Origin: Pseudomonadota bacterium
Lineage (GTDB): Bacteria > Bdellovibrionota > Bacteriovoracia > Bacteriovoracales > Bacteriovoracaceae
DNA: 64,000 nucleotides
Direction: 5' to 3'
Assembly: GCA_027487515.1 (NCBI GenBank)
Contig: JAIYDL010000022.1
Coordinates: 1 to 64,000 of the forward strand
Shown here: positions 25,587-46,436 of the stretch, in pieces
Position numbering within the stretch: the stretch's first letter is position 1
How the letters are laid out: the number at the start of each line of letters is the position of its first letter
Notes under the pieces: model-generated
The model's database searches: none
What the model was told of the DNA's origin: nothing
The model's input: only the letters and a program-made list of their open reading frames with translations
Made by a program: the position numbers and the translations under genes

Positions 25587-28502
25587 ATGGAACAACAACA
25601 AAAAAGCCTTCTTCTGAAAGACTCTCTCTCCGATGCACAGGATCTGGATTCGTTCCGGCTCTTCGCGAGGCCTTTGACCGGGCGGCTCCTGGAAGCGATG
25701 GAGCTCGGGAAGCAATACTTTCATGGAGAGGGCGACTACCTCTACTACCAGCAAGACAACCGGATTCACCGAGCGCTTGACGTCACCGGAGGCTACGGGG
25801 CCAATATCCTTGGACACCGCCACCCTTCGATCCTTCAGAAGGTCCAAGAGTGGCGCGAGGCCGGAGCCCCCTCCTTGACCCAAGGGAGTAATCGCCGGGA
25901 AGCAGGCCGGCTTGCGGCACGACTTTCGGAGACGCTCAAGAAAGAAACCGGGGAAGGCCCCTGGGTGACGACCTTTTCCAGCACGGGGACCGAGGCGGTG
26001 GAAGCGGCCTACAAGCATTGCCTCCTCTACTTTAGGCAAAAAGCCCTTGAGCTGCAGCAAGAGGTTGAAAAAGAACTGAACCTCGCGGTCACCAGAATCC
26101 TGCGCTTAAAATCGGAGCAGCAGATCGCGGTGGTTCGTGGCCTGCGCGCCGAACTGATTCATCGAACGGATTCCCTCCGGATGTCCCCCGAGCGCAGGTC
26201 TTACCTCCTCCACCAGCTGGCCAATTGCCATGACCTCGATGGTCTCCTCGAACTCGTTCGGGTCGTAAATGAAGGTCAGCTCTCTGAGCATCCGCACTTC
26301 CTAGCACTCGAGCGCGCGTACCATGGAAAGACGATGGGTGCCCTGAGCCTCACCTATAACGAGAGCTTCCGGAATCCGTTCTTCCTCGATGACTCTTCAA
26401 ATACGCGCACCACCTTCGTCTCCCAGTTCATCGAAGCCGCGGATCTCCAGGCCTTGATGGAGACCCTCCGAAGAGACCTTCTCTTCATCGGCCTGGGGCC
26501 CAGCGGCGCCACCTGGGTCCGACACTCCTTCTCCCTTCTGGCCGGGGCCTTCGTTGAACCGATCCAGGGCGAGGCGGGAGTCATCGCCGTCAGCGCGAGC
26601 TTCCTCGCACAGCTAAAGAAGTTTTCCATCCAGGAGAACTTCCTCTTGGTGTTCGACGAAATCCAGGCCGGCATGTACCGCACCGGCCGCCTCGCTTCGG
26701 GAAGTCACAGCGACGTCACGGCCGACGTTTACACGTTCTCCAAATCCCTCGGCGGCGGCGTCGCGAAGATCGCCGCGACGACGATCAATCAAGAGAAGTA
26801 CGTCGAAGACTTCGGCTTCCTCCATACGTCAACCTTCGCGGACGATGACTTCTCTTCGGCCGTCGCTCTCGCGGTTCTTGACCTCCTCCAAGACGAAGCG
26901 TCGCCGGTTCCCCAGGGCCTTCGAAACGCTGACTACCTGGCGACTCGGCTCGAGTCTCTGCGGGACCAGTTCCCAGACCTCGTGAAGGAGATTCGCGGCA
27001 AGGGACTGATGCTTGCGATCGAGTTCCAGGACTGTCTGGCAGGGCTGGGCTTCGAGTTCAAGATCATCAGTGACGCGAAGATGCAGGGCTATCTCCTTGC
27101 CTCCTGTCTCCTGAACCACGAAAGCATCCGGACGACTCCGTCGCTGTCAAACAGCCTCACGCTTCGGATCCAACCGAGTATCTACTTCAAGGAATCCCAA
27201 ACCGACGAGCTCCTCCGTGGGCTCGAGAATCTTTGCCAGGCCCTGAAAGAGAAAAACCTCCGCTACCTTCTCTCTGCCCTGTACCCGAACCAAGAAATCC
27301 TGAACGTCCCTTCTCCCGCGCTCAAGAACGAGTTCGTTCCCGGGCAGCGCCGGACGGCGGTGTTCCTTTGTCACCTCATCGACGAGCGCCACGTCCAGCG
27401 CGTGACGAGTCCGATGAACAAAGTGTCTAGCAAACTCCTCGTGAAGAAACTTGCTCTCACGAAGGAGCTCGCGGAGTTCGAAGTCTATCACTCGCAGACG
27501 CTCGTCGATAACTCGGGCCAGGAGATGGATGTCTTACTCATGGCCGTACCGATCACCTCTGAGGAACTCAAAAAATCATACACCTCGAAGCAGAAATCCA
27601 AGGTGATCCAGAAGGTTCAGAACGCCATCGACTACGCGAAGGAACTCGGTGCGTGCACCGTTGGGCTGGGACAGTTTACGTCGATCGTTTCTGGCAACGG
27701 TCTGTACTTGAATCCTCGGGGACTCAATCTCACAACCGGGAACGCCTTTACGATCGCCCTGACCGTGCAGTCTGCGCTCCGATCCGCAGAAACGAAGCGC
27801 ATCGAACTCTCGACGGCGAGCGTCGCCCTCATTGGAGCAGCGGGGAATATCATGTCCGTTGCGACGAGTCTCATGGCCGACCACGTCGGAAGGCTCATCC
27901 TCATCCATCACACACCGATCGAGGCGAGTAGTAAGTTCCAGGATACGCTCCGGAAGATCCTGACGGAGATCGCTTCATCGGACGCGGCCTCGGACGTGTG
28001 TCAGGTGGTTCGTGCGCAGTGGAAGAACCAGGATCTCCTGAGCTTCCTCGAGCTCGAAGACGTCAAGCGCGTTCTGATCGCAACCGCCGACATTACTCAA
28101 GTCCGTGACGCCGAGATCGTCCTCTGCGGCGCCAGTGCTTCGAACGGCTTTCTTACCCTCGACCTCTTCCGGGAGAACACCGTCGTGGTCGACATTGCTG
28201 TTCCTCCATCGATCACGCCCGAGATGCATAAAGAGCTCAAAGTGAAGCGGCCAGACCTCACGTACCACATGGGTGGAGTGGCGCAGATCCCGCAAGGGCA
28301 GAGCCTCGATTTCTTCATCTTCCCACTCGGAGAAAACGAATGCTTTGCCTGCATGGCCGAGACCTTCGCGCTCGGCTTCAGCGGTCGCAAGAATTTCTTG
28401 AACATCGGTGACTTGAACAAGGCCATCGTCCTGGAGGTCCAGGAGATCGCCCGGGACGCCGGGTTCGTCCTCGGGAGCGATAAGAAGAAGAGCTCACTCT
28501 AG
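25587..28502 (+). CDS. Class-III aminotransferase fused to an acyl-ACP-reductase-like domain
   Basis: 971 residues. N-terminal half (to about 560) is a PLP fold-type I, class-III aminotransferase: GGYGANILGHRHPS, STGTEAVEAAYKH, FDEIQAGMYRTG and the PLP Lys in TFSKSLGGG; an extra helical insertion of about 75 residues follows the GTEAVE helix. C-terminal half (about 600-971) matches cyanobacterial long-chain acyl-ACP reductase: CHLI start, LGQFTSIVSG, TTGNAFT, NADPH loop VALIGAAGNIMS and the catalytic-Cys region FACMAE. Expected chemistry (inference): acyl thioester to fatty aldehyde, then transamination to a fatty amine. Start uncertain: ATG 25587 has no SD; TTG 25521 is an alternative adding 22 residues. 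It ends nine bases into the convergent acetyltransferase gene. Confidence 0.85.
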   Translation: MEQQQKSLLLKDSLSDAQDLDSFRLFARPLTGRLLEAMELGKQYFHGEGDYLYYQQDNRIHRALDVTGGYGANILGHRHPSILQKVQEWREAGAPSLTQGSNRREAGRLAARLSETLKKETGEGPWVTTFSSTGTEAVEAAYKHCLLYFRQKALELQQEVEKELNLAVTRILRLKSEQQIAVVRGLRAELIHRTDSLRMSPERRSYLLHQLANCHDLDGLLELVRVVNEGQLSEHPHFLALERAYHGKTMGALSLTYNESFRNPFFLDDSSNTRTTFVSQFIEAADLQALMETLRRDLLFIGLGPSGATWVRHSFSLLAGAFVEPIQGEAGVIAVSASFLAQLKKFSIQENFLLVFDEIQAGMYRTGRLASGSHSDVTADVYTFSKSLGGGVAKIAATTINQEKYVEDFGFLHTSTFADDDFSSAVALAVLDLLQDEASPVPQGLRNADYLATRLESLRDQFPDLVKEIRGKGLMLAIEFQDCLAGLGFEFKIISDAKMQGYLLASCLLNHESIRTTPSLSNSLTLRIQPSIYFKESQTDELLRGLENLCQALKEKNLRYLLSALYPNQEILNVPSPALKNEFVPGQRRTAVFLCHLIDERHVQRVTSPMNKVSSKLLVKKLALTKELAEFEVYHSQTLVDNSGQEMDVLLMAVPITSEELKKSYTSKQKSKVIQKVQNAIDYAKELGACTVGLGQFTSIVSGNGLYLNPRGLNLTTGNAFTIALTVQSALRSAETKRIELSTASVALIGAAGNIMSVATSLMADHVGRLILIHHTPIEASSKFQDTLRKILTEIASSDAASDVCQVVRAQWKNQDLLSFLELEDVKRVLIATADITQVRDAEIVLCGASASNGFLTLDLFRENTVVVDIAVPPSITPEMHKELKVKRPDLTYHMGGVAQIPQGQSLDFFIFPLGENECFACMAETFALGFSGRKNFLNIGDLNKAIVLEVQEIARDAGFVLGSDKKKSSL

Positions 28503-29627
28503 GTCGCGGCCGTAGAGCACGTACTCTGAGTAGGATTCCTGGGAGCGCTCTTCGAACGATCTCCGGGACGGCGAATTCTTGATCTGGAACGTCACCAGAA
28601 CCGTGCGCATGAGTGCGGTGATCACTTGGATCCTCTTCGAGACCTGGATCTGCACGCCTTTGATCTCTTCCCCCTGAGGCCCGAGGACCTTTCCCACATG
28701 AGCGATGAGGAGGGTCGAGAGATTCGTCCGGAGTTGGAGCAGGAGAAGCGCCTTCCGTAGCTTCGAAAGCTTGCGCCCCTTCACGCGCAAGAGAATCGGT
28801 AAGGGGTCAGCGAAGTTGATGCTGAATCCGACCGGTTCTCCCCGCAGTTCGACGATGTAGGCGTAGTAAGAGTTGATGATGTATTTAAAGTCATCGTAGA
28901 TGACTTTAAACTGCGGGAAGCTGATCGGCTCCCACTCGGGCATGCTCTTGTAGGCTTCGGTGAAGAGCCGATGAATGATCCGGAGCTCCCCGTCCCAATC
29001 TTCGGGACGCACGCAGCGGACCGTGGTCCGGAGCCGCTTGTCTTTCGTCTTCGAGTGACTCCCGTCGGTCTTCTTGGCAAGCTTCTTCCGTTTTACGAGG
29101 TAGTCCCAGATTCCCTTCAGGCGCTGGATCTTGTAGGTATCCCATCGTCCGATTTCTTTAAACCCCGTGCGCGCAAAGAGGTCGTGGTAGTAATCCGGGT
29201 AGATGGGTTCGCCCCAGAAGGGCTTCCCTCCGCCGGGACACTTGATGCGGTACTTGACGTAGAAGTTGAGATCAACCGGCGTCTTCAGAGACGTGAGCCC
29301 GGTCGACCGACCCGCCTGAAGGACAGCGTCGACGAGGACGTTTGCGGCCTCGAGGTTGTTCTCCCAATCCAGGAATCCGAGGTTCCCGATCGCACCGTCG
29401 CGGCGCCAAGCGAGGATCGCTTTTGCGCGAACCGAAGCACCGTCAAGGACCATGAAGCCGACCCAGGAGTAGTCCGCAGCGAAAGGATTCTCGGGCCCGA
29501 AGTAGCGCTCGTAGTCCTCGAGAGTCTCTGGCAAACTCGACGGCAGCTGCGAGTGGACTCGGTTTCGAAACTCAACGAAGAGTTCAAAGAAGGCCTTATC
29601 CCAGCGTTCTACGGTGACCAGTTTCAT
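28494..29627 (-). CDS. GNAT-fold (acyl-CoA N-acyltransferase-like) protein
   Basis: 377 residues, size of a two-lobed (tandem) GNAT protein. Strand-helix patterns KAILAWRRDGAIGNLGFLDW and YYAYIVELRGEPVGFSINFAD fit beta4-alpha3 GNAT cores, and each half holds one. It may N-acylate the amine made by the fusion enzyme next door (inference), so substrate is unknown. The ATG at 29627 overlaps the P450 stop as ATGA, making it the fifth and last gene of the CarS-UbiA-PEP enzyme-P450-GNAT operon. It has a convergent 9-base overlap with the fusion gene. Confidence 0.66.
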   Translation of the reverse strand: MKLVTVERWDKAFFELFVEFRNRVHSQLPSSLPETLEDYERYFGPENPFAADYSWVGFMVLDGASVRAKAILAWRRDGAIGNLGFLDWENNLEAANVLVDAVLQAGRSTGLTSLKTPVDLNFYVKYRIKCPGGGKPFWGEPIYPDYYHDLFARTGFKEIGRWDTYKIQRLKGIWDYLVKRKKLAKKTDGSHSKTKDKRLRTTVRCVRPEDWDGELRIIHRLFTEAYKSMPEWEPISFPQFKVIYDDFKYIINSYYAYIVELRGEPVGFSINFADPLPILLRVKGRKLSKLRKALLLLQLRTNLSTLLIAHVGKVLGPQGEEIKGVQIQVSKRIQVITALMRTVLVTFQIKNSPSRRSFEERSQESYSEYVLYGRDLE

Positions 29628-30925
29628 GCGCGCCTCCGGAATCTCATTCTGATGTTGTTGACGGGCCTCAGACTTATCCCCGCTTCGTTGCGCTGGGGCC
29701 CGGGTTCGACGATCTCCCAGGTGAAATGCTGAACCAGACAAGCGAGAATGATCCGTGCCTCGAGGCCCGCGAAGTAGGCACCGATGCAAGCCCGAGGGCC
29801 AAGGCCGAACGGGTAGTAGGCCCCGGCAGGTATCTTCTTCCTTTCTTCCGGAAGAAAGCGCGCGGGTCTGAACTCCAGGGGCGAGTCCCAGAGGTCGGCC
29901 GAGCGGTGTGACAGAATCGGGGCCAGGACAACGTTGGCCTGCGGGGGAATCACCAGATCCCCGAGCTTATCTGCGACCTCTGCCTGCCGCATGAAGACCC
30001 AGACCGGGGGCCAGAGGCGCATGACCTCATCGAGGACGGCACCATGCCAAGGAGCCGTGTTAAGTTTCTCGAATTCGCGGTGCTGAAAGAACGCGAAGGC
30101 CTCGCGCTCTAACTCGGGCCGACACTCCGGGTGGGTTGCGACTTCGATCAGCGTGTAGGTCAATGAGTTGGTGATGGTCTCGTGCCCCGCCATCATGAAG
30201 GTCATGATCTCGTCTCGGATTTCCCGGTCGCTCATTTGGGCGGTCCCCTCCTCTTGTGCATCGACTAAGAGCTGGAGGAGATCTTGTTTTCGGGTGCCGG
30301 TCCGTCGCTCCTGGATGAGACCAAAAACATGCCGATCGAACTTCCCGATGATCTGTCGCAGTCGCCGGTGGTTGGCCGTCGGTACCCAAAATGGGAGCGG
30401 GATCGATGACCTCGTTTTCGCCGTGATGATGCGCATGAGTTCGAGGATCTCGTGGAGCCAGGCATCGAGCTCCGGGGTCGGCTCTTGGGAGAAAAGTGTC
30501 CGGAGGATAATCCTCCAGGTGAGCCTGTTCATTTGGTGGAAGCCATCGAGGTCCGCTTCCGCGTCTAATGACGGCAGAAAAGTTTCGACGGTCTCGAGCA
30601 TCTTCGGCGCAAGCTCAAAGACACTCCGGAGGTTCATCACCGGCCGGATCATCCGGTGCTGTTTGCGCCAGGATGCCCCTTCATTGGTGATGAGTCCGTT
30701 CCCTAAGAACCGCCGGAGCGCCTTGGTAGTGCGCCCCTTGGTGTACCCGGCGTTGTTCGTTTTGAGGACGTGGAGGACGTCCTCCGGGTGGCTCACGATG
30801 AAGAGCTTCTTTCCGAAAATCTCTAGCCGCGCTCGATGGCCCTGGGCCCGATGCAAATCTTGAACGAACCCTAAGGGGTCCCGCCGGTAGGCCTTCAAAG
30901 TCCGATACGATTTCAGCAGACTCAT
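29624..30925 (-). CDS. Cytochrome P450
   Basis: 433 residues, no membrane anchor, the length of a soluble bacterial P450. I-helix AGHETITNS (oxygen activation), K-helix EVMR (ExxR), and the heme loop FGLGPRACIGAYFA with the axial Cys. The I-helix and overall similarity to CYP102/CYP4-like sequences suggests fatty-acyl hydroxylation; no fused reductase or ferredoxin gene lies in the cluster. It overlaps the flanking genes by 4 bases on each side (ATGA), so it is strictly co-translated with the PEP-utilising enzyme and the GNAT protein. Confidence 0.93.
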   Translation of the reverse strand: MSLLKSYRTLKAYRRDPLGFVQDLHRAQGHRARLEIFGKKLFIVSHPEDVLHVLKTNNAGYTKGRTTKALRRFLGNGLITNEGASWRKQHRMIRPVMNLRSVFELAPKMLETVETFLPSLDAEADLDGFHQMNRLTWRIILRTLFSQEPTPELDAWLHEILELMRIITAKTRSSIPLPFWVPTANHRRLRQIIGKFDRHVFGLIQERRTGTRKQDLLQLLVDAQEEGTAQMSDREIRDEIMTFMMAGHETITNSLTYTLIEVATHPECRPELEREAFAFFQHREFEKLNTAPWHGAVLDEVMRLWPPVWVFMRQAEVADKLGDLVIPPQANVVLAPILSHRSADLWDSPLEFRPARFLPEERKKIPAGAYYPFGLGPRACIGAYFAGLEARIILACLVQHFTWEIVEPGPQRNEAGISLRPVNNIRMRFRRRA

Positions 30926-33318
30926 AGTACCTCTATCGTCCCTTTAACAGCGTCCAGTCGCAGCCGGTCGCCGGTCTTGATTTTCAGTGTCGCTCCTCGC
31001 ACGCCCACGACCGTCGGGATGTTCAGTTCGCGACCGATGATGGCCGTATGACTCAAGAGAGATCCCTTCTCAGACACCAGGCCCTTGCTCCGAGACATGA
31101 TGTACACCCAGGCGGGGTCAGTGTTCTTTGTGACTAGAATGAAGTCCTGAAACTCAGAAACTAAGACGTCGCGTGGGTTGTCGAGCACCAGAGCGATGCC
31201 CTCTGCGATTCCCGGCGACACCCCCTGACCCACAAGCTCCCCCTGGACCTGGGCCGCTGTGTGCTCCGGCAGAGGTTCCTCAGCGACCCAGGCCAGGACT
31301 TCCGGGTAGTGGCGCTTCTTCTCCTTCCACCCTCGACGATCCCGGATGCGGGCCCGGACTTCTTGGGTCGAGATCTTGCCGTCAGCGAACTCGAGCCACT
31401 CCTCGGTCGTGAGGGAGAAAAAATCGAGGAGGTCGAAGGCGCTCCAAGCGGGATCACTCTTCAGGAGCTTCCCGGCCAGAGCGAGCACCATTTGTCGGAT
31501 GAGATGGTAAAACTTCCCGCGCCAGAGTCGAGTGGCCTCCCGCACAGACACCGCTTCCCGGGTGTACCGCAGGATCCGGTTGCCGATGAATCCGAGATCC
31601 GGCTTCGCAGGGCGAGTTCCCGGGGCCTGAGTCCGAGGAGGATTCTTCTTACACCAGAGCATGAGGTCGGAGAGAAGCTTCGGGTTATTCCTCAGGGGAA
31701 GGCTCTCGAGCTTGAGCTCTTCAAAGGAGCGGTCCCCGTAGCTCAGGAGAAAACTTTCGATGAGGTTCACTTCGCGCGCGCGGCCCTGTGCCCGGAGCCT
31801 CTGAAAGATCTGCGCGTAGGGCTCGAGGCCAATGGAAAGATCTTGGGCGGCAAACTCCCGCAGGAAGTGTTCGTCGAGCTCCACGAGGAGCTGGTTGAAG
31901 TGCTCTAACGGTTTTACCGAGTCCACCCCGTCATCGGTCTTGAGTAAGTCGATGACTGTCTCCTCATCGAGGCTCATCGATGTCACTTTCCGCGTGAGAT
32001 ACCCAAGGCCCATCATGATGAAAATATCGTTCACCACCGTGAGCCCAAACCCGAGGGGACGGTTCGTGACCGCCACCAAGTAGCGGATCAGCTCCTCCGG
32101 ATTCTGCCGCGTCTTCGCCTCCACTTCGATCTCCCCTCGCAGTCGCTCGAGATCCGTAAGGAGCCGAGAAAAGATTGACCGGCGCCGGAGCATGATCCCG
32201 ACGAGGGCCCCCACAGTCCGGAAGCTTTCAGCCCGGGTGAGCTCGGTCTCATGATGCGGGATGCGAAGGTCGGCCACTTTTCCGCCGATCATCTTGTGCC
32301 AGTTCTCAATGTTCCTCTCGCCACCGGGAAGCGCTCGGAGAACGGCGTAGTAGTGCTCGAGGTTGTAATAAAGGTGGTTATCCACTTGGCTGATGAGTCG
32401 CGAATAGTGATGGTTAAGGGCCGCGAGCCGAGGGCCCCGGGCCCCCATGAGGACCGCCGACTCTCGGAAGACGTTCTGGTAGGCGGTCTTCACAAAAGCA
32501 GCTGTCAATGGGCTCACGGTCCCCGGGTAGGACTCAGACAGGTTCGTGTCAACGTAGTACACGAGGGGGTCAAAGCTCCGCGTGATGGGTCGAATCTGAA
32601 AGACAAAGAGCGTGCCCTCTTTAAGACCCCACTCAATGTCACTGGGAGCACCGGCCTTGGCCTCGAGCCCGAGGCTCAGCTTAAGTAGCACAGCGAGTTC
32701 GCTTTGCGAAAGAACCGGGGTCTCTCCGAAGATTGTGGACGTCACGAGTTCTCCCGTCCGTGCTAGCCGATACGTGTCTACGTCGGCGTGGCCAGAGACG
32801 ACCCCCTCACCCATCCCAAATGCTGCGTCGATCGCAACGGTCGCAGTCGGTGGGACTGGGGAGCGGGTAAAAAGAACGCCGCTCTTTTCCACCCGGACGA
32901 GCGCCTGAACCACGACGGCCATCTCGAGGTTGACCTCGAGCTTTTTATGGAAGACATACTCACGGACACGGTCACTTGAGAGCGACCGATAGACTTGATT
33001 GAGGGCCTCTTGCCAGCCCTCTTCACGGACATCGAGGATCGTGTCGAAGAGGCCCGCGAAGCTGGAGTCTGCGGCGTCCTCCGCGATCATGGAACTCCGG
33101 AGCGCGACCACCGGGTGGTCTCGGAAAAACTGCTGAAACCGTTCAGCAAGGTCCGGCGGAAAGCTACCGTGGTCCCGGAACCATCGGTAAGCCATCGTCG
33201 TGATAACGAAGAAGGGCGGGACCGGGGCATCCCAGGAAATGAGCCTCTGAAGCTGGTGCGCTTTTCCCCCGACGAACTCTTTCGGTGCGACGGGGACCAT
33301 TTCGGCCAAAAAACTCAT
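30922..33318 (-). CDS. PEP-utilising enzyme, PPDK/rifampin-phosphotransferase architecture (copy 1)
   Basis: 798 residues. N-terminal ATP-grasp part with VGGKAHQLQRL and VALRSSMIAEDAADSSFAG, then the DIEWGLKEGTLFVFQIRPIT end of the PEP/pyruvate-binding domain (about residue 250-265). A long central helical region (from ESYPGTVSPLTAAF on) corresponds to the substrate domain of RPH-type enzymes. The C-terminal phosphohistidine swivel domain has LLSHTAIIGRELNIPTVVG with the catalytic His. Such enzymes move the beta-phosphate of ATP via His to an acceptor; the acceptor here is unknown, plausibly an alcohol on the lipid intermediate. Paralogue at 39816. Overlaps both neighbours by 4 bases. Confidence 0.84.
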   Translation of the reverse strand: MSFLAEMVPVAPKEFVGGKAHQLQRLISWDAPVPPFFVITTMAYRWFRDHGSFPPDLAERFQQFFRDHPVVALRSSMIAEDAADSSFAGLFDTILDVREEGWQEALNQVYRSLSSDRVREYVFHKKLEVNLEMAVVVQALVRVEKSGVLFTRSPVPPTATVAIDAAFGMGEGVVSGHADVDTYRLARTGELVTSTIFGETPVLSQSELAVLLKLSLGLEAKAGAPSDIEWGLKEGTLFVFQIRPITRSFDPLVYYVDTNLSESYPGTVSPLTAAFVKTAYQNVFRESAVLMGARGPRLAALNHHYSRLISQVDNHLYYNLEHYYAVLRALPGGERNIENWHKMIGGKVADLRIPHHETELTRAESFRTVGALVGIMLRRRSIFSRLLTDLERLRGEIEVEAKTRQNPEELIRYLVAVTNRPLGFGLTVVNDIFIMMGLGYLTRKVTSMSLDEETVIDLLKTDDGVDSVKPLEHFNQLLVELDEHFLREFAAQDLSIGLEPYAQIFQRLRAQGRAREVNLIESFLLSYGDRSFEELKLESLPLRNNPKLLSDLMLWCKKNPPRTQAPGTRPAKPDLGFIGNRILRYTREAVSVREATRLWRGKFYHLIRQMVLALAGKLLKSDPAWSAFDLLDFFSLTTEEWLEFADGKISTQEVRARIRDRRGWKEKKRHYPEVLAWVAEEPLPEHTAAQVQGELVGQGVSPGIAEGIALVLDNPRDVLVSEFQDFILVTKNTDPAWVYIMSRSKGLVSEKGSLLSHTAIIGRELNIPTVVGVRGATLKIKTGDRLRLDAVKGTIEVL

Positions 33319-34190
33319 AGGAGGGCACCGACGAGAAGCACTGACACCACGAGGAGGATCTGCGCCTCCGCGATGGGTTTTAGGGGCCGCGGTAACCGAA
33401 GGGTCACCAGAAAATGCACCGCCGGGAACACGAGGCCTGCCTGGATGAGGAGGAAGGCCCCACGGAGCAGTCCCGGAGTCGAAAGTTTTTCAAAGATCGC
33501 AAGGACGGCCAGAGTATAGACGAACTGGAGGACAAGGGCGATCATGACCGCGGTTCTTGGGCCAAAAATTTTTGAGTAGGTCGTATACGAGTCCTCTTGC
33601 TCCGGCGCCCGGATCTTCCGAACGAGCTCCCAGTTCGTGAAGATCAAGCAGATCGGGAGGATGAATCCGATGCTCGAAAAGGTAACTCGCGGATCCACTT
33701 CCGTGCAGGCCAAAACGAGGTAGGTAAAGTTGAACAGGACGATGGGGTGGTGTGACGCGAAGGCAAGCGGGAGACTCTTTCGCATCCGCGCTTCGATGAA
33801 AAACCACTTCAGCATGAGGTACGTGAATCCAAGAGTGACCAGTGCCCACAGGAGGAGCGTTAGTGAGGTGAGGCTCAGAAACACCACCATGAAGACACAG
33901 AAAAAACCCAGCGCCCGGAGATCGGTGATCAGGACTCGCCCAGAAGGCAGCGGTCGCTTCGGGAAATTGATGAGGTCATCTTGGTAGTCCTTGAACTCAT
34001 CCATCACTCGGATCAGGAGCGAAATGAAAGCGAGAACGAGCCCGGGCACCACGAGGGAGAGGATCGAACTGCCCCGGACATCGTACAGCCGGAGGTAGGT
34101 CAACTGAACGGCGACTGCCGTGAGAATTGACCCCACGAATGACGAAAGGGGGAACATCTCATTGAGGTACACAAAGACACGCTTAACCAT
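33315..34190 (-). CDS. UbiA-family membrane prenyl/aryltransferase
   Basis: 291 residues, about eight to nine TM helices. First Asp-rich motif: RVMDEFKDYQDDLINFPKRP then LPSG, the UbiA signature including the RPLPSG end. The second motif lies in KIRAPEQEDSYTTYSKIFG. Members couple a polyprenyl diphosphate to an aromatic ring, a glycerol phosphate (archaeal DGGGP synthase) or a sugar. The neighbouring CarS-like gene points to a lipid rather than quinone role (inference). It lies 8 bases after the CarS-like gene and overlaps the PEP enzyme gene by ATGA. Confidence 0.85.
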   Translation of the reverse strand: MVKRVFVYLNEMFPLSSFVGSILTAVAVQLTYLRLYDVRGSSILSLVVPGLVLAFISLLIRVMDEFKDYQDDLINFPKRPLPSGRVLITDLRALGFFCVFMVVFLSLTSLTLLLWALVTLGFTYLMLKWFFIEARMRKSLPLAFASHHPIVLFNFTYLVLACTEVDPRVTFSSIGFILPICLIFTNWELVRKIRAPEQEDSYTTYSKIFGPRTAVMIALVLQFVYTLAVLAIFEKLSTPGLLRGAFLLIQAGLVFPAVHFLVTLRLPRPLKPIAEAQILLVVSVLLVGALL

Positions 34191-34198
34191 ATCAATTC

Positions 34199-34756: not shown

Positions 34757-34767
34757 AAGTAGATTAT

Positions 34768-38614: not shown

Positions 38615-38615
38615 G

Positions 38616-39833
38616 ATGAAGTACTTAGTCTCGGCCATTCTTCTAAGCCTTGCTCCCCTCGCCGTTCGGGCCGGGGACGCGGAACTCTCCGGCAACCTCG
38701 AGGGCCAGTTCCGGAACGCGACGAATAACGATGAGGCTAAGAAATCTCCTCTCTTCCAGGACTGGGATAACGAAAACTTCTTTCTCATCTATGGGAACGT
38801 GAATGCGAAGGTCGACCTCGGAGACTCGCGGTTCGAGGCCAACTGGTTCGGTCGCCACGGGAAATCTCCGCTGTACGAGCCAGAGCCTTTCAGCGCCCAA
38901 GGGACCCCGCGTGATCCCTACCTCGCGACGAGCGTTTTCACCTTCCCGCAGCGGCTCGTGGCCCGGGACATCTTCCAGCTTCAGCACGTTGACCAGCGGG
39001 GTGACCAGAGGACTGAGTCCGTGCTGAACAAGATCTACTACGAGTGGGAATACGCCGAACACCGGATGATGGTGGGCCGGATGTACGTCAACTATGGTCT
39101 GGGAGAAATCTTTAATCCGTTGAACCCCTTCAACCAACCCACCGGCCTCACGGCGATTTCTCAAGTGGCGCAAGGGAACGACGGATTCTCCCTAACCTAC
39201 TTCGTCGACGACTTCCACACGATTCAGTTTCTCGTTCTGGGAGATAAGCGCATCGAGGGGTACGATGGCAGCATCAATCGGACACTGTGGATGCACGGCG
39301 AGTACCAGGTCACTGAGAAGTTCCAGCTCGACTACGTCTTGGGCGAGGACCAGAACCGACGGAAAGCGGGGGGGCAGATGAGCTACCAGTTCGAAGATGC
39401 GCTCGTGTTCACGCAGGTCCTCTACCAGTCTGCGAGCGTAGAGGACGAGCCTTCCCACGACCTTTTGGACGCGCTCCTCGGGTACGACCAACAGATCACG
39501 GGCATCTGGCACGTGCGATTCGAGGGCGGCTACCAAAAGACCAATCGCTTTGCGACCGCGACGAACTTCGATCGGTTCTTGCCGACGGAATACTTCGGGG
39601 CCCTCGCCAACGTGCTCGAGGTTCATCCCCTCTTAAAGCTGAGCGGGACTCTCATTCACGATGTGAAATCAGGGTTCAGCTACGCCGTGGCCAAGGCAAC
39701 TTTCAGCGCCACCAAAAGCACGGAGCTCGAGGCCTTCGGCTTCAGCCCCATCTCCCGCGGGGATGAAGCGGACAATCTGGCGCAGAAACTTGTGACGCAA
39801 GATCTTGGCGTCGCCCTACGGGCCTTTTTCTAG
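38616..39833 (+). CDS. Outer-membrane beta-barrel of the export module
   Basis: 405 residues. Signal peptide MKYLVSAILLSLAPLAVRA, then strand-rich sequence with a large predicted barrel, many Tyr/Phe/Asn, ending in the barrel signal LGVALRAFF. The central motif MMVGRMYVNYGLGEIFNPLN resembles the R-x-x-x-x-W-G core of DUF1302/porin-like proteins that accompany lipid exporters. It probably completes the ABC-carrier-outer-membrane route for the cluster's product (inference). The last 18 bases overlap the convergent PEP-utilising enzyme gene. Confidence 0.8.
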   Translation: MKYLVSAILLSLAPLAVRAGDAELSGNLEGQFRNATNNDEAKKSPLFQDWDNENFFLIYGNVNAKVDLGDSRFEANWFGRHGKSPLYEPEPFSAQGTPRDPYLATSVFTFPQRLVARDIFQLQHVDQRGDQRTESVLNKIYYEWEYAEHRMMVGRMYVNYGLGEIFNPLNPFNQPTGLTAISQVAQGNDGFSLTYFVDDFHTIQFLVLGDKRIEGYDGSINRTLWMHGEYQVTEKFQLDYVLGEDQNRRKAGGQMSYQFEDALVFTQVLYQSASVEDEPSHDLLDALLGYDQQITGIWHVRFEGGYQKTNRFATATNFDRFLPTEYFGALANVLEVHPLLKLSGTLIHDVKSGFSYAVAKATFSATKSTELEAFGFSPISRGDEADNLAQKLVTQDLGVALRAFF

Positions 39834-42119
39834 GACCTCCACCACTCCCGTTTTTCCGTTCATCTTAATCAGGTCACCGTCGTTGATGAGCTTCGTGGCG
39901 TCGATGAGGTTCAGGATGGCCGGGATGCGGTACTCGCGGCCGATGACTGCGGCGTGAGACAAGAGTCCACCCACCTCAGTGATGACCCCGCCAACGCGAG
40001 CGAGAACCGGCGTCCATCCTGGGTCCGTGAAAACCGTGACGAGGATCTCCTCCCTGGTGAGGCCCCCCGTTTGATGGATGTCAAAGATGACCCGAGCTCG
40101 GCCAGTGACCTCCCCAGGACTACAGCCCAGACCCTTGAGGTCTCCGGACCCCGACGCTTTGGCGGCCTGGATCCTCCCACCGAATTCATTCGGTGGCGTA
40201 AACATTCGGTAGCCTTCGTAGTACTGCCGCCGGCGCCGCGTCTCCGGAAGCGGAGCGCCGGACAGGGCCCGGGCGACCTCCCGGACGTCGAGCATGAAGG
40301 CGTCGATCTCCGAGAGGCCGCGGCGCCGGGCGAATTCGAGGAGACCCAGGCGCAGAAGGTAGTAGGCCCGCGTCGAGTACGACCGCATTTCCTCCCGGAG
40401 TCGGAGGAACTCGCGAGAGGCTTCCGTGCGTCGTTCAAAAAGTACTCGAGCTAGGGGCCCGAGGTTTCTTCGGATCCGGTCGAAGGTCAGTTCATAGCGG
40501 TTCTCACCGCCCTCCTTCGTCGGCAGATAGCTTCGAACCAGATCGTCGACCCAGTCCTTGCGCTCTCCCCAACGCGCGACCCGGAGATCGAGCTCGGCAG
40601 GGCCGTGGTGATAATGGTCCGCGAGAAAATTTTCACGTTCGCGGTGATACGCTTCCGATCCTAGGCCGTGGTGTTCCGCCACAACCCACAACTTCCCAAG
40701 GCCCGCCTGGACGTCGAGGTGGGCGACGCCCCGGAGTTCGCTCATCAAGTCAACCTCGTCTCCGAGTTCGTAGCCGGGAAGTTTCTTGAGCTGGCCCTTG
40801 TACTCCGTTTGGTAATTCGAATTATTGTAGATCGTCCGGAAGTAGCTCTTCTCCGTTTGGTTTTGGAAGCGGATTACCTCAGAAAACCAAGCTTCGAAGT
40901 CGCGGGTCGGCATCGAGGGCAGTCGTGGAAGTTGAGCCTTTAGCGCGCGGTCATCGCCCTCGAAAGTCTGCCGGAAGTGCCGGATCATGTTCCGGCAATC
41001 GAGGAATTCCGAGTTCAGTCCGATCAGAACGGGGATGGCGCCGACGACCGACGCCACGGAGACCGGAGTGTGCGCGGGCCCGGCCTCGCCGTAGTCTTTT
41101 TGAACTCCGATGTCGCGGTCGAAGTCGGCTTCTTTAAAATCCGGGAGCTTCTTCAGGCCATCCTTCACTGCCCCGGCGTTCCAGTAAACTCGGCCGTAGT
41201 GGTAGACGATCCAGTCCACCGTTTCGTCGTTCGAAATGAGCCGAACTTTCTTTAAGTACTCACCCATCGAATACTGAAGCGCGTCCCGGTAAACGGAGAA
41301 CATGAATGGCGTGCAGACCCGCGCCGAAACACCCCCGTCCTTGAAGTCCGCGTTCGTGAGCTCGGGAGAATCGGTTCGAGGCAGGAACGTCGTGACTGGC
41401 CGGGACTGGAGGATGTAGACCTTTCCATCTAGCCCGATCGCCCACTCTATGTCCTGGGGCGACCCATAGTGCGCCTGGATCCGCGCGGCGAGCTCCACGA
41501 GTTCCGAGAGTTGTTCGGACGTGATCCGCGTGCCTTCAGCGTTGACGGACTCTCGGATCAGGCGATCGGAGATCCAGTCGTAGACGATCGCCGTGGGTGT
41601 GACGTGGCCCGAGACGAGGCGCTCCCCGAGACCAGCACAGAGTTCGATGTACATCTCCTCCTCGTGACCGTTGAGAGGATTGATGGTGAAAAGAACCCCG
41701 GCGGTCACCGCCGGAACCATCTTCTGCACGAGGACACTCATCCGCAGGGACTCCGGAGTCCACTCAATCCCTCTCGTTTCAAGGTAGTCACGCACTCGTG
41801 AAGAGTCGCGAGACGCGAAGCACTCAAGGATCCGGGACTCGAGGTCCGTCAGAGAGGAGACGTCGAGGAATGTTTCGTACTGGCCCGCGAAGCTCGCGTC
41901 GCCGAGGTCCTCGAGGCTTCCGCTCGAGCGCACGGCAACGGGGAATCCTCCGAGCAGAGCGACATCGGCCAGACTCACCGGCGCGGGCTTCTCGAGCACG
42001 AGTCCTCGAGGAACGGGAAATCCGGCCAGAAGCAGTTCGTGTAACTTCTGCGCCTTCCCTCCAAACTGCGAGGTCGTCTTTGGGTCAAGCCCGGGGTTGC
42101 CTAGATAAAAGTGAGTCAT
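39816..42119 (-). CDS. PEP-utilising enzyme, PPDK/rifampin-phosphotransferase architecture (copy 2)
   Basis: 767 residues, paralogous to the gene at 30922 over its whole length. ATP-grasp part with FGGKAQKLHELL, VAVRSSGSLEDLGDASFAG and DIEWAIGLDGKVYILQSRPV; long central helical domain; C-terminal swivel domain with LLSHAAVIGREYRIPAIL and catalytic His. Central domains of the two copies differ much more than the ends, which suggests different acceptors. TAGAAT ends six bases before the ATG, with AGGAG between. Stand-alone minus-strand gene inside the cluster, convergent with the barrel gene, divergent from the radical SAM operon. Confidence 0.84.
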   Translation of the reverse strand: MTHFYLGNPGLDPKTTSQFGGKAQKLHELLLAGFPVPRGLVLEKPAPVSLADVALLGGFPVAVRSSGSLEDLGDASFAGQYETFLDVSSLTDLESRILECFASRDSSRVRDYLETRGIEWTPESLRMSVLVQKMVPAVTAGVLFTINPLNGHEEEMYIELCAGLGERLVSGHVTPTAIVYDWISDRLIRESVNAEGTRITSEQLSELVELAARIQAHYGSPQDIEWAIGLDGKVYILQSRPVTTFLPRTDSPELTNADFKDGGVSARVCTPFMFSVYRDALQYSMGEYLKKVRLISNDETVDWIVYHYGRVYWNAGAVKDGLKKLPDFKEADFDRDIGVQKDYGEAGPAHTPVSVASVVGAIPVLIGLNSEFLDCRNMIRHFRQTFEGDDRALKAQLPRLPSMPTRDFEAWFSEVIRFQNQTEKSYFRTIYNNSNYQTEYKGQLKKLPGYELGDEVDLMSELRGVAHLDVQAGLGKLWVVAEHHGLGSEAYHRERENFLADHYHHGPAELDLRVARWGERKDWVDDLVRSYLPTKEGGENRYELTFDRIRRNLGPLARVLFERRTEASREFLRLREEMRSYSTRAYYLLRLGLLEFARRRGLSEIDAFMLDVREVARALSGAPLPETRRRRQYYEGYRMFTPPNEFGGRIQAAKASGSGDLKGLGCSPGEVTGRARVIFDIHQTGGLTREEILVTVFTDPGWTPVLARVGGVITEVGGLLSHAAVIGREYRIPAILNLIDATKLINDGDLIKMNGKTGVVEVLEKGP

Positions 42120-42214
42120 GCTCCTATTCTAAGGCCGATGGCGCCGATCACTCATTTTTTTTAGCCGACGAGATCATTAATCTTCCACGGCCATCCCGCT
42201 GGTCCACCTTCCAT

Positions 42215-42244
42215 TTGACCAAGGGACGAAGATGCCAATAAGAT
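42215..42244 (+). promoter_or_regulatory. Candidate sigma-70 promoter of the radical SAM operon
   Basis: TTGACC (42215-42220), 18 bases, TAAGAT (42239-42244). It would give a leader of about 80 bases before the GTG at 42333. The 213-base divergent region 42120-42332 holds no other feature. Confidence 0.45.
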
Positions 42245-42246
42245 GA

Positions 42247-42260
42247 CTCTATGAATAGAG
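42247..42260. promoter_or_regulatory. Palindrome at the expected transcription start
   Basis: CTCTAT-GA-ATAGAG, perfect 6-base arms, begins three bases after the putative -10 hexamer and would cover the transcription start, a typical repressor position. Confidence 0.35.
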
Positions 42261-42332
42261 GCATTCCCCACTCACTTGTTCGAAACTGTGTAGCGCCATG
42301 GGAGCCTTTTTTCCAATTTTCTCAGAGGCCCT

Positions 42333-43757
42333 GTGCAGACATTTAATCTCCTAGAACGCTTCAATCTCCGGGCCGTCAAAGGACTTAACTTTCTTAAGCC
42401 CCGTGAACTCTGCTACGTCCGCGTGATCTCCCTCGTTGACCTGACAGCGATCGACGCTGGCGTCATTTCCGAAGCTGCCAAGCACTCCTCGATGACCTTC
42501 GTTTCTTTTCCGATCGAAGAGATCAACCAAGCCGAGAAAGTCCGTGCCGTCATCCAGCTGGGGATCAGAGGGTTCGCGCTCCGGGCCAGCTACGATGACA
42601 AGAAGTTCCTCCACCATGACCGAAGAGGCCCCGAGCGCTCCGGTGACCTGGATCTCATCGCCAAGGTTGAGCAGTTTCGGCGAGAATATCCTGACGTCGA
42701 GGTGGTGGTTGAGTTCCAGCTCCGGCCCGACCTGCGCATCCTCGCGCCGACCATCGCGCGGCTTTACGAAGAGGGAATGCGGTGGGTTGTCCTGAACGCC
42801 GAAGGCGTGCCCGATAAGCTGCGAACATCGAGCTTCCGGGAAGTCTTCGAGTACCTCAGGATCCGGAGCTGCAACTACCTGAACGTCTACTTCCCCTTTT
42901 GGAATCCGGAATTCCGCGAATGGGACATCAAAACTCAGAACACGTTCTCGGGCCTCTTCGAAGTCCACATCGACATCTCGAACCGCTGCACGCACAGCTG
43001 CACGTTCTGCGGTCTCTATGGCCCCGCGGCCATCGAGGACATCAAGAAAGACAACGGCGGTAAGCTCAGTCCCCAGGTGAACGAGTTCATGAAGATGGAG
43101 ATCGACTCCGAGCACTGCCACCGGATCATCGAGAGCTTACCCTGGAGCGTTCGACTGGTGCAGTTCGGCGGCGCCGGCGATCCACTCATGCACCGAGACG
43201 CGGTGAAGTTCATCGGCGCCGTTCGCAGTCGGGGCTTCCGAGTGAGCGTCCTTTCGAACATGGAGTATCTCGGAGAAGAGGATATCCTCGAACTCCATCG
43301 ACTCAGTGGCCGAAAAGATGAGCTCCATTTCATCGCCAATGTCTCGGCCGGGACTCCGGAGCTGTACGTCGAGACGAGGCCTCGGCAAACCGAAAAAACC
43401 TTTGAACGCGTGGTCTCGGTGCTCGATCGGTTCAGCACTCTCCGAGAGACCAGCACCGACGGGAGAGGAGTCTATTTCACTGTCATGTGCGTGGTCACCT
43501 CGATTAACTGCCGCTCGCTCCTTGATGTGGCCAAGCTCTCCGTGAAGTTGCGGGCCCAGAAACTGTGGTTCAAGCCCATGGAGCTTCACGCGAATTTCCA
43601 GGCACCTCTGGTACCAAGTGGTGATACGATGATGCGAGACATGGCCCGCTCCCTGAAGGCCGCAGCGGACTATGCCCTGGCCCACGGAGTTGAACTGGAG
43701 CAGCAAGAGTACTGCGACCAAATCTTCGAGCGCTACTTGGGAGAAATGCATGTCTGA
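42333..43757 (+). CDS. Radical SAM enzyme with a long N-terminal domain (locus 1)
   Basis: 474 residues. The first about 205 residues form an extra alpha/beta domain (YVRVISLVDL, VEVVVEFQLRPDLR, MRWVVLNAEG) like a half barrel. The radical SAM core follows with HIDISNRCTHSCTFC (C219, C223, C226), the GGE-like FGGAGDP and GFRVSVLSNMEYL. A SPASM-type auxiliary-cluster region is not fused; it is supplied by the next gene. Substrate unknown. Start is GTG with AGAGG four bases upstream. The stop overlaps the SPASM gene by 8 bases (CATGTCTGA). The close paralogue is at 53471. Confidence 0.86.
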   Translation: MQTFNLLERFNLRAVKGLNFLKPRELCYVRVISLVDLTAIDAGVISEAAKHSSMTFVSFPIEEINQAEKVRAVIQLGIRGFALRASYDDKKFLHHDRRGPERSGDLDLIAKVEQFRREYPDVEVVVEFQLRPDLRILAPTIARLYEEGMRWVVLNAEGVPDKLRTSSFREVFEYLRIRSCNYLNVYFPFWNPEFREWDIKTQNTFSGLFEVHIDISNRCTHSCTFCGLYGPAAIEDIKKDNGGKLSPQVNEFMKMEIDSEHCHRIIESLPWSVRLVQFGGAGDPLMHRDAVKFIGAVRSRGFRVSVLSNMEYLGEEDILELHRLSGRKDELHFIANVSAGTPELYVETRPRQTEKTFERVVSVLDRFSTLRETSTDGRGVYFTVMCVVTSINCRSLLDVAKLSVKLRAQKLWFKPMELHANFQAPLVPSGDTMMRDMARSLKAAADYALAHGVELEQQEYCDQIFERYLGEMHV

Positions 43758-44133
43758 CCTCGTGAAAAAAGTTCCCCAGGACCTTACCGTTGATGAAGTC
43801 CGGATCGGCGTCGCCAATGGGGATGTCCCCGCGAACCTTTACTCAGAGATTCCGTGCACCATAGGCCACTCCTACATCCGGTTCGAGGTCTCCGGAAACA
43901 TCGTCCCTTGTTGCATCGCCAAGCACCGGATCGGCGATGTCAAAAAAAATGATTGGCGCGACGTCTGGCACTCCGGCGCCTACGATTCCTTTCGCCGGAA
44001 AATGTCCCGGATCCATCTCGATCGGTTTCATCTGGTAGACCCCGAATGGACCTTCTGCCAACAGTGCAGCCACGTGCCTTTGAACCAGACCAACGCAGAC
44101 CTCCTCCGCAAAGGCCGTCAGGAAGAACCATGA
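43750..44133 (+). CDS. Stand-alone SPASM-like Fe-S domain protein (locus 1)
   Basis: 127 residues. Five Cys in a SPASM/twitch order: C36 (IPCTIG), C54-C55 (IVPCCIAKHRIGD) and C103, C106 (WTFCQQCSH), with the linking RFEVSGN and DWRDVWHSGAYDSFRRKM typical of SPASM domains that follow radical SAM cores. Here it is a separate polypeptide whose start lies inside the rSAM gene end (8-base overlap), so it probably binds the rSAM protein in trans and brings an auxiliary [4Fe-4S] cluster. Its end overlaps the next gene as ATGA. Paralogue at 53101. Confidence 0.8.
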   Translation: MSDLVKKVPQDLTVDEVRIGVANGDVPANLYSEIPCTIGHSYIRFEVSGNIVPCCIAKHRIGDVKKNDWRDVWHSGAYDSFRRKMSRIHLDRFHLVDPEWTFCQQCSHVPLNQTNADLLRKGRQEEP

Positions 44134-45497
44134 AAAAATCCAGCGAAGTCCGTGACGAACTCAACGCCGTTTCCCCAAGCTTCTGTTTGGCGAAGTGGCT
44201 CCAAGTGACCATCCACCTCCAGAACGGACACACGCACTCCTGCCACCATCCCATGACCCATAAAGTCTCCCTCGATGAGCTCGCCTATGATCCGTCGGCG
44301 CTTCACAACACCAGCGAGAAAAAAGAGTACCGGAAGCAGATGCTCGAGGGCACCAGACCGAAGGAATGCCAGTACTGTTGGAACATCGAAGACGCGCACC
44401 CGGACAACTTGAGCGATCGCACGTTTAAGTCCGCCGATGACTGGGCCTACACCCGGCTCGGAGAAATCTCCACCGCTCCCTGGGATCGGTCGGTGAACCC
44501 CGCCTACATCGAAGTGAGCTTCGGGAACGAGTGTAACTTCAAGTGCGCCTACTGCGCCCCGCACATTTCCTCGGGCCTCATGACGGAGTACCTGAAGCAC
44601 GGTCACTACTCAGGCATGCCCCAGTTCTCCCTCGATAACATCCGGGACCTCGGTCAGTTTCCCTATTCCAAAGACGAGCACAATCCCTACGTCGACGCGT
44701 TCTGGAAGTGGTGGCCAAGTGCGAGCAAGGACCTCAAAACGTTCCGGATCACGGGCGGAGAACCACTCCTGAACCCGAACACCTACCGGTTCTTCGAGTT
44801 CCTTCGACAGAACCCCATGCCGGACCTGAGTCTTGCGATCAACAGTAACCTCGGAATCCCGCGCGGGACGCTCGACAAGTTCATCCGCGAGGTCAAGTAC
44901 ATCACCGACCACAAGCTCATCAAAGACTTCCAGTTTTTCACGAGCGTCGACACCTACGGGAAGAACGCCGAATTCATCCGGTTTGGCCTCGACTACGACG
45001 AGTACATGGAGAACGTGAAACTCTTCCTTCGGGAAGTCCCGCAGGCCCAGCTCATTTTCATGTGCACCTACAACGCCTTCTCCGTCTTGAACTTCCGAAA
45101 ATTCCTCGATCAAGTGATCGAGCTCAAGCGCGCCCATAAGAACGAATGGAACTACACGAAAGTGTTCCTCGACACTCCGTACTTGAAGGACCCGCGGTTT
45201 CTCTCGTGCTACGTCTTAACCGAGGACTTCTGGCCCGTGGTCCGCGCAGACCTCGAGTACATGAAACAGTTCGCCGTCGGCGACGCCCCGGGGGATGCGC
45301 TCTTCTACGAGCACGAGGTCAGCAAGTTCGAACGGATCCTTAACTGGCTCGAGAATCTGGAAGAAAGCATGCACCGGCAAGGCATGCGCCGGACGCTCTA
45401 CGACTTCATTCAGGAGTACGAGGACCGGAAAGGGATCCGCTTCCACGACTACTGCCCCGAGTACGCCGCGTTCTACGAACTATGTAAGTACAGCTGA
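44130..45497 (+). CDS. Twitch-domain radical SAM protein
   Basis: 455 residues. N-terminal twitch-like Cys set C19 (SFCLAKW), C38 (HSCHHP), C80 and C83 (ECQYCWN) precedes the radical SAM motif CNFKCAYC (C135, C139, C142); FRITGGEPLLN is the GGE loop. This N-terminal placement of the auxiliary cluster is the mark of the N-twitch rSAM family. Substrate unknown. It starts by ATGA overlap with the SPASM gene, so the three form one translation-coupled unit. The frame is open from 43953 upstream, but ATG 44130 fits the overlap. It shares 18 bases with the convergent gene. Confidence 0.86.
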   Translation: MKKSSEVRDELNAVSPSFCLAKWLQVTIHLQNGHTHSCHHPMTHKVSLDELAYDPSALHNTSEKKEYRKQMLEGTRPKECQYCWNIEDAHPDNLSDRTFKSADDWAYTRLGEISTAPWDRSVNPAYIEVSFGNECNFKCAYCAPHISSGLMTEYLKHGHYSGMPQFSLDNIRDLGQFPYSKDEHNPYVDAFWKWWPSASKDLKTFRITGGEPLLNPNTYRFFEFLRQNPMPDLSLAINSNLGIPRGTLDKFIREVKYITDHKLIKDFQFFTSVDTYGKNAEFIRFGLDYDEYMENVKLFLREVPQAQLIFMCTYNAFSVLNFRKFLDQVIELKRAHKNEWNYTKVFLDTPYLKDPRFLSCYVLTEDFWPVVRADLEYMKQFAVGDAPGDALFYEHEVSKFERILNWLENLEESMHRQGMRRTLYDFIQEYEDRKGIRFHDYCPEYAAFYELCKYS

Positions 45498-46436
45498 CGA
45501 TCCCGGAAAGAGTGCCTGGAGCTGCTCGTTCTCGCGTACCTCATCGAACCCTGGCCTCAGTACCGCCCGGACCTTCGTGAGGCGTGAGAGGTGCTCGAGC
45601 ATCTGCTGGGCCTGGCCCCAGGGCCGCTGGCAGTAGAGACCCCAAACCTCCCAGGCAATCTGGCGCTCGATCAGCGAGCGCTCGTCTGGGGTGAGCCCCT
45701 CCAAAAGTTTCCGATCCTCCGCTTCGCGGTCATGGTGAAACCAGAGGTAGAGATGCGGCGCGAGGATCCGAAAGCCGCCGCCGAGGTCTGCGTGATACAC
45801 ATCGAACTCTGGCTTCCGCGCCTCTTCAAGCCAGCGGCCCAGGGATTCCGGGAGTTCTGGCCGCGACGGGAGGAGGCCCCCTAGCACCTGAATGATCGTC
45901 TCCGTTGTGATTTGCTCCGCAGGTGTGTTGAGACCCGTGAGCTCAAGGTGGTGTCGCCATTTCTTTTGGCGAAGCCAGGGTTCTCCCTGAAGCGTAAAGG
46001 CATCGGAGAAAAACATCCGCTGCAGGAAGATCAGTTTCTCAATCCGATCCACTGGAGCTGCGGACTGTGTGAGCGACTCCAGCACTGGGTCCCGGCGCAG
46101 CTCAAAGGAATTCATCCGAGGCACGAGCTCTGCGAGATCCTTCAAGAGGTAGACGTTCGCTTCTCCGAGAAACGGAAGCACGCGCTTCGCCGTGCCGAGA
46201 GTTCGCAACAGAGTTGACGTGGGCAATTCCTGATCCGAGAGCACGGTGACATCGAGGTCACTGACACCGAAGACAAACGTTCGTGCACGGACACTGTTCC
46301 GATCCCAAACCTTAGTCCCTGGCCCCAGGAGAAGCTTGAGGAGAACCCGCAGGATGAGAAGGCCCGTGACGTATGGGAGTATGGCGATGCACCGGGGAAG
46401 AATCTGGTCCAGGCGGTGAAAGTCATTCTTTTTCAT
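45480..46436 (-). CDS. Nucleotidyltransferase-superfamily-like protein
   Basis: 318 residues. Near the N-terminus a hydrophobic stretch (about 17-38) is followed by FVFGVSDLDVTVLSD, i.e. G57-x-S59-D60-x-D62, the hallmark G-S-x-D-x-D of the DNA polymerase beta-type nucleotidyltransferase fold. The remaining 250 residues are helical and carry no motif I can name. Could transfer a nucleotide or act as a degraded member; role in the cluster unknown. TATACT ends exactly six bases before the ATG with no SD. Convergent 18-base overlap with the twitch rSAM gene. Confidence 0.62.
   Translation of the reverse strand: MKKNDFHRLDQILPRCIAILPYVTGLLILRVLLKLLLGPGTKVWDRNSVRARTFVFGVSDLDVTVLSDQELPTSTLLRTLGTAKRVLPFLGEANVYLLKDLAELVPRMNSFELRRDPVLESLTQSAAPVDRIEKLIFLQRMFFSDAFTLQGEPWLRQKKWRHHLELTGLNTPAEQITTETIIQVLGGLLPSRPELPESLGRWLEEARKPEFDVYHADLGGGFRILAPHLYLWFHHDREAEDRKLLEGLTPDERSLIERQIAWEVWGLYCQRPWGQAQQMLEHLSRLTKVRAVLRPGFDEVRENEQLQALFPGSSAVLT

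Follow-up and report, generated by a model that had tools for sequence, protein, structure and literature searches.

A conserved gene cluster in Bacteriovoracaceae with a candidate role in the synthesis and export of a fatty-amine-derived envelope lipid

In the 64,000-nucleotide stretch of Bacteriovoracaceae DNA analysed here (contig JAIYDL010000022.1, hereafter the window), twelve genes at 25587-42119 form a conserved unit in the order FUS-GNAT-P450-PEP1-UbiA-CarS-ABC-ABC-ABC-LolA-barrel-PEP2, in which FUS denotes an aminotransferase/acyl-ACP-reductase fusion (ACP, acyl carrier protein) and PEP1 and PEP2 are two dikinases. The reading favoured here, with some reserve, is that the unit serves as a dedicated second phospholipid pathway beside the housekeeping one, building a fatty-amine-derived envelope lipid and moving it to the outer membrane. 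Within this reading, the predicted amine synthesis, the predicted CDP-lipid synthesis and the assignment of the exporter to the LolA/FtsX family are supported by homology. The genes of the unit are as follows.

25587-28502, plus strand: FUS, class-III aminotransferase with C-terminal acyl-ACP reductase, TamH-type (Pfam Aminotran_3 3e-56; matches to 6jzu and 4ppm)
28494-29627, minus strand: tandem GNAT acyltransferase-fold protein (AlphaFold model, pLDDT 86.7; Foldseek matches to tandem GNATs and mycothiol synthase)
29624-30925, minus strand: cytochrome P450, accessory (Pfam p450 1.8e-65)
30922-33318, minus strand: PEP1, dikinase of rifampin-phosphotransferase architecture (Pfam; PDB 5fbs; own clade, 98/98, with a planctomycete)
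33315-34190, minus strand: UbiA-superfamily membrane transferase with a non-canonical second motif (profile match to the DGGGP synthase 6m31, 3.6e-6)
34199-34756, minus strand: CarS-like CTP:lipid-phosphate cytidylyltransferase (Pfam PF01864, 47.7 bits; cut-off 22)
34768-36006, plus strand: FtsX/MacB-type ABC permease 1 (MacB_PCD)
36003-37211, plus strand: FtsX/MacB-type ABC permease 2 (MacB_PCD, FtsX)
37201-37890, plus strand: ABC ATPase (ABC_tran 4e-34)
37883-38614, plus strand: LolA-like periplasmic lipid carrier (PF17131 2e-42)
38616-39833, plus strand: outer-membrane beta-barrel, porin-like (low-confidence model, pLDDT 66.6; porin matches)
39816-42119, minus strand: PEP2, dikinase of rifampin-phosphotransferase architecture, proposed lipid kinase (Pfam; PDB 5fbs 4e-56; clade 100/99)

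Conservation and extent of the unit

A preliminary description of the window had placed a lipid biosynthesis and export locus of about 21 kb here, and its account of the locus was confirmed in part. All the open reading frames that it named are present, in the places and on the strands where it had put them, and its domain calls were borne out by Pfam and NCBIfam for the class-III aminotransferase and reductase fusion, the P450, UbiA, CarS, the MacB/FtsX permeases, the ABC ATPase and LolA_like, as well as for two radical SAM proteins and one SPASM protein beyond PEP2. The 21-kb boundary did not stand, as synteny within the genus and in another genus stops at PEP2 (42119). The genes are tightly packed, with a five-gene run on the minus strand (GNAT-P450-PEP1-UbiA-CarS), a five-gene run on the plus strand (the three ABC genes, LolA and the barrel) and a third run of three genes in the radical SAM block; within these runs, neighbours overlap by 4-11 bases or are separated by gaps of 1-8 bases. 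The earlier figure of twelve genes in tight operons is therefore roughly right, thirteen being counted. CarS and the first ABC gene are divergent, and their start codons lie 11 bases apart (34757-34767), so that the promoters must lie within genes.

The synteny comparison that had been proposed as a check reveals that the genes do not scatter independently; clusters recur across genomes. FUS is present in 25 of the 129 genomes of the class. Within the genus, the twelve-gene order is found again with proteins about 43-94% identical, and mostly has the Lgt region on one side and L27/Obg on the other; a genome of another genus (G115) shows the same order at 30-67% identity. Such recurrence in many genomes, at 30-94% identity, places the arrangement far from chance. 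Profile searches of loci outside the family show FUS, PEP1, PEP2, UbiA, GNAT, CarS and a phosphatidylserine-decarboxylase-like (PSD) gene repeatedly clustered in Bdellovibrionota of different families and in one planctomycete; their order is shuffled, and individual genomes may lack one or another of them. In G356, CarS-PEP2-FUS stands beside UbiA-PEP1-PSD within about 10 kb; the cluster of G165 holds PEP2, CarS, PSD, PEP1, GNAT, UbiA and FUS, that of G319 holds PSD, UbiA, FUS, PEP2 and CarS, and those of G051, G053 and G052 include PSD and an MMPL exporter. The Planctomycetota locus (L075) comprises PSD, PEP2, an AMP-ligase, FUS, PEP1, GNAT and UbiA, with no CarS seen at the locus, and a Spirochaetaceae locus (L096) comprises a PssA-like CDP-alcohol transferase, PEP2, a short CarS-like open reading frame (29 bits), GNAT, PSD and a stand-alone aminotransferase. 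Since orders and strands differ, the co-location appears to be maintained rather than a product of recent descent.

Meanwhile, FUS and PEP2 occur together in 23 of the 129 genomes (25 hold FUS and 27 hold PEP2; p 3e-19), UbiA and CarS occur together in 24 (25 and 27 holders; p 1e-21), and the genus sets of FUS and PEP2 are identical, at 9 of 48 genera (p 6e-10), one of them by a weak FUS match; these p values treat genomes or genera as independent and so overstate the significance.

Enzymes of the proposed pathway

In the proposed scheme, FUS would reduce an acyl-ACP to the aldehyde and then transaminate it to an alkylamine, as its homology to TamH indicates. The tandem GNAT might then acylate the amine or a hydroxyl, the P450, or perhaps a desaturase homologue in some relatives, might oxidise the chain, and UbiA and PEP1, which travel together, might add and/or activate a further group. 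PEP2 would phosphorylate a lipid alcohol with ATP, and CarS, by homology, would turn the lipid phosphate into a CDP-lipid. Serine would be added and then decarboxylated to an ethanolamine head by PssA and PSD, which some relatives would have as a dedicated pair and for which the window's genome would rely on its housekeeping enzymes. The FtsX-type ABC genes, the LolA-like carrier and the barrel, or an MMPL/RND exporter in other members, would export the lipid.

The reductase half of FUS matches the cyanobacterial acyl-ACP reductase AAR (6jzu) and PigE (4ppm), and the aminotransferase half matches CrmG and putrescine aminotransferase. The pyridoxal phosphate (PLP) lysine K386, the nucleotide motif G750xxG753 and the catalytic cysteine C922 are invariant in eight diverse FUS relatives. 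PtTamH, from the tambjamine YP1 cluster, converts C12-ACP to the C12 amine with L-Glu and NADH (PMC9594044). Like PtTamH, FUS has an N-terminal class-III PLP aminotransferase with its lysine and a C-terminal AAR-type thioester reductase domain with its catalytic cysteine (PMC9594044), and because the two share this domain order and these active-site residues, fatty-amine formation by FUS is the best-supported step of the predicted pathway. The possibility that FUS is a domain-swapped PigE, in which the reductase comes first, was discarded; the order of TamH is the order of FUS, and hence not new. The surroundings differ: around FUS there is neither an ACP ligase of the TamA type nor any bipyrrole gene, and the genes beside it encode phospholipid-type enzymes and an exporter for envelope lipids. 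A TamH-type fusion was also observed in Kangiella taiwanensis (L077), accompanied by two AMP-ligase-like, ACP-like, KAS III-like, RND exporter, LolA-like and desaturase-like proteins, which makes this locus a candidate for another fatty-amine lipid cluster.

Both dikinases carry the PPDK_N and PEP-utilizers domains, as the earlier label of PEP-utilising enzymes implied, but that label is misleading, since their domain order is that of rifampin phosphotransferase (RPH), with the ATP-grasp first, the catalytic-His swivel domain at the C-terminus and the pyruvate barrel absent. A PEP synthase function was rejected on the absence of this barrel. The RPH arrangement converts ATP and an alcohol to a phosphate ester, AMP and Pi (PMC4844700). 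The ATP-grasp, the variable substrate domain and the C-terminal phospho-His swivel of RPH recur in PEP1 and PEP2 (PMC4844700), whereas their middle, substrate region is unmatched by sequence and two paralogues stand in one lipid cluster. In the tree, PEP1 and PEP2 fall into separate supported clades (98/98 for PEP1, 100/99 for PEP2). Both clades contain proteins from Bdellovibrionota and Planctomycetota, and that of PEP2 also takes in Spirochaetota. The swivel histidine is kept in both clades, surrounded by clade-specific motifs.

In two genomes, G117 and G118, no full match to FUS or PEP2 was found, and in G117 a FUS fragment is left beside GNAT. Between CarS and the ABC genes of both lie a YegS-type lipid kinase (DAGK_cat and YegS_C), a fatty-acyl-reductase-like NAD_binding_4 protein and a hybrid with a C-terminal AAR-like part, which suggests that FUS and PEP2 may be replaceable by another AAR system and a lipid kinase. 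The occurrence of the YegS kinase where PEP2 is missing suggests that PEP2 is a lipid kinase; together with its architecture and with the runs that its gene forms with CarS in a number of genomes, this makes phosphorylation of a lipid alcohol its proposed role. We know of no link between the kinase family of PEP2 and membrane lipids. In G099 (L153), the genes from GNAT to the barrel are present with only a remnant of the fusion, and PEP2 was not found in this genome, which is 85% complete and whose contig ends in the barrel gene; FUS and PEP2 are thus once more missing jointly.

The same enzymes could be read as the makers of a secreted amphiphilic natural product of the tambjamine or prodiginine kind, with PEP1 and PEP2, as relatives of TamQ and PigC, condensing the FUS amine with a carbonyl partner and the transporter exporting the compound. 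FUS is TamH-like, TamH sits in such a cluster, and PEP1 has weak matches to PigC and RedH, but PEP1 fits PEP synthase models better than PigC or RedH, and both dikinases match RPH structures best. Furthermore, Pfam detects neither bipyrrole (MBC) genes nor any other genes for pigments at 25521-50867 of the window, and the recurrence of CarS and PSD, together with the YegS lipid kinase that turns up in the absence of PEP2, points to phospholipid chemistry. Such a product is accordingly regarded as unlikely.

CarS shows the PF01864 match and the KR...G......DQxD core of its family, and the CDP-archaeol synthase 5guf is the sole solved relative matched in the profile search. The window's genome carries a normal CdsA besides CarS, which is therefore an extra enzyme. 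UbiA is weakly matched in Pfam and clearly by profile, its best solved relative being the DGGGP synthase 6m31. Its motif 1 (DxxxD) is present, with D64 and D68 invariant in 13 sequences, while motif 3, the second Asp-rich motif, is absent and replaced by E188..RK.R.P..E199 in all aligned members. Of the earlier suggestion of a possibly prenylated lipid, the UbiA family and motif 1 thus stand, and prenylation stays uncertain because the second Asp-rich motif has been lost.

The UbiA, CarS, PssA-like and PSD-like families recall the archaeal DGGGPS-CarS-Ass-Asd pathway (PMC9385802) and its variant in the FCB group (PMC7852524). A bacterial archaeal-type isoprenoid ether pathway, in which UbiA would be the DGGGP synthase, CarS the CDP-archaeol synthase and PSD an archaetidylserine decarboxylase, with amine modification by FUS, would account for DGGGP synthase and CDP-archaeol synthase being the closest solved relatives, and the enzyme order agrees with the archaeal scheme (PMC9385802). 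Nevertheless, GGGP synthase (PF01884) was found in 0 of the 20 genomes tested, in which positive controls were found, and UbiA is non-canonical, without its second Asp-rich motif; on these two grounds membership of the archaeal ether-lipid pathway was rejected, and this reading is considered very improbable. The locus also adds a TamH-type amine enzyme and dikinases to the archaeal set. In the FCB-group variant, GGGPS and DGGGPS are present and CarS is absent (PMC7852524), a pattern of GGGPS and CarS opposite to that of the genomes holding the locus.

The GNAT protein has no Pfam match, but its confident model best matches tandem GNATs, so that the fold call of the preliminary description holds at the level of the predicted structure. 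An apparent GNAT-UbiA fusion in the planctomycete locus was dismissed as a frame artefact, the two matches lying in different frames. The P450 is not at the cluster in G085, G089 and G098. A fatty acid desaturase family gene was observed near UbiA, PEP1 or GNAT in three genomes (L162:13552-14520, L163:8456-9400, L171:629-1423), and this homologue possibly stands in for the P450 in some relatives. In the cluster of G165, an AurF-family (N-oxygenase) protein lies between PSD and PEP1 (L171:3910-4845), which is consistent with an amine substrate.

One form of the second-pathway reading makes the product a ceramide-like lipid formed without serine palmitoyltransferase, with GNAT N-acylating the alkylamine, the P450 or a desaturase hydroxylating it and PEP2 phosphorylating it before CDP-activation. 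This form draws on the tandem GNAT fold, on the P450, FA_desaturase or AurF near the cluster in different members and on the YegS/DAGK-type kinase in the place of PEP2, but it leaves UbiA and PEP1 without explanation, and several members have no P450. It is held to be distinctly unlikely.

Head groups, export and neighbouring genes

The window's genome has one PSD, located away from the cluster, whereas G051, G053 and G165 hold a second PSD within theirs. In G128, G068 and G348, FUS and PEP2 occur with a PAPS-type sulfotransferase, and CysD/CysNC-type genes lie near FUS in G128, G068 and G013, which suggests that this subset may make a sulfated relative of the amine lipid. AOS-like aminotransferase, DAGK, kinase-like/TMK-like, AIRS and HAD genes were also observed, not all everywhere, at L051/L053 (G128), L054/L055 (G068), L062 (G006) and L172 (G348).

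The two FtsX/MacB-type permeases, the ABC ATPase and the LolA-like carrier make up the components of a Lol-type lipoprotein sorting system. What sets it apart from such a system is its association with genes of lipid biosynthesis and with a barrel in the outer membrane, and other members have an MMPL exporter in place of the ABC, LolA and barrel genes of the window's genus; from this neighbourhood, the cargo is presumed to be a lipid and not a lipoprotein. The barrel predicted earlier is porin-like in fold, but its model is of low confidence and the fold search is weakly informative.

Beyond PEP2 lies a variable neighbour.

42333-43757, plus strand: radical SAM protein (NF033640 in this block)
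43750-44133, plus strand: detached SPASM protein
44130-45497, plus strand: twitch radical SAM protein
45480-46436, minus strand: 'NT', family not recognised, without a Pfam or NCBIfam match

The earlier nucleotidyltransferase-like label of the last gene is thus not confirmed. The block had been counted into the pathway; it is absent or elsewhere in most relatives, being missing from this site in G081, G087, G104, G083, G085 and G089 and partly elsewhere in the genome of G097, and was rejected as part of the pathway on synteny. SPASM is encoded by its own gene, overlapping the radical SAM gene and followed by the twitch-type radical SAM gene; the split pair was also observed in G088 and G097, at varying positions.

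Standing and implications of the pathway

Besides the inflated co-occurrence statistics, several observations weigh against a second phospholipid pathway. What PEP1, UbiA and GNAT do is guesswork, and the product is a predicted one. PSD is not in the window's cluster, and in G356 and G319 the cluster PSD is the only one, so it may be a general PSD, while PssA was met in L096 only. The kinase swap occurs in only two genomes, 77% and 91% complete. In addition, G128, G068, G006 and G348 carry FUS and PEP2 without CarS nearby, several of them with sulfotransferase or sulfate-activation genes, so that the head group varies. Of the earlier interpretation, lipid biosynthesis and export, an amine tail from the TamH-type fusion and a phosphorylated or CDP-activated lipid are supported, and the inclusion of the radical SAM, SPASM and 'NT' genes is not.

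In the open-access literature, to which the search was limited, subscription papers lying outside it, no description was found of an amine-tailed bacterial phospholipid or of a CarS/UbiA/dikinase cluster, and the conserved lipid pathway is apparently undescribed there. A broader claim, that Bdellovibrionota, Planctomycetota and perhaps Spirochaetota share an undescribed and complete second phospholipid pathway with a fatty-amine lipid, a PPDK-derived kinase, an archaeal-type CarS, an ethanolamine head and outer-membrane export, is plausible but falls a little short of probable.

If the proposed pathway is correct, it would be a second phospholipid route, complete in itself, whose membrane lipid has a tail derived from an amine, placing a PPDK-type kinase family in membrane lipid synthesis and an archaeal-type CDP-lipid synthase in bacteria, and it would bear on the interchangeability of the modules of the 'lipid divide'. 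Relatives of predatory bacteria would then own a distinctive envelope lipid, whose identity is directly testable by mass spectrometry.

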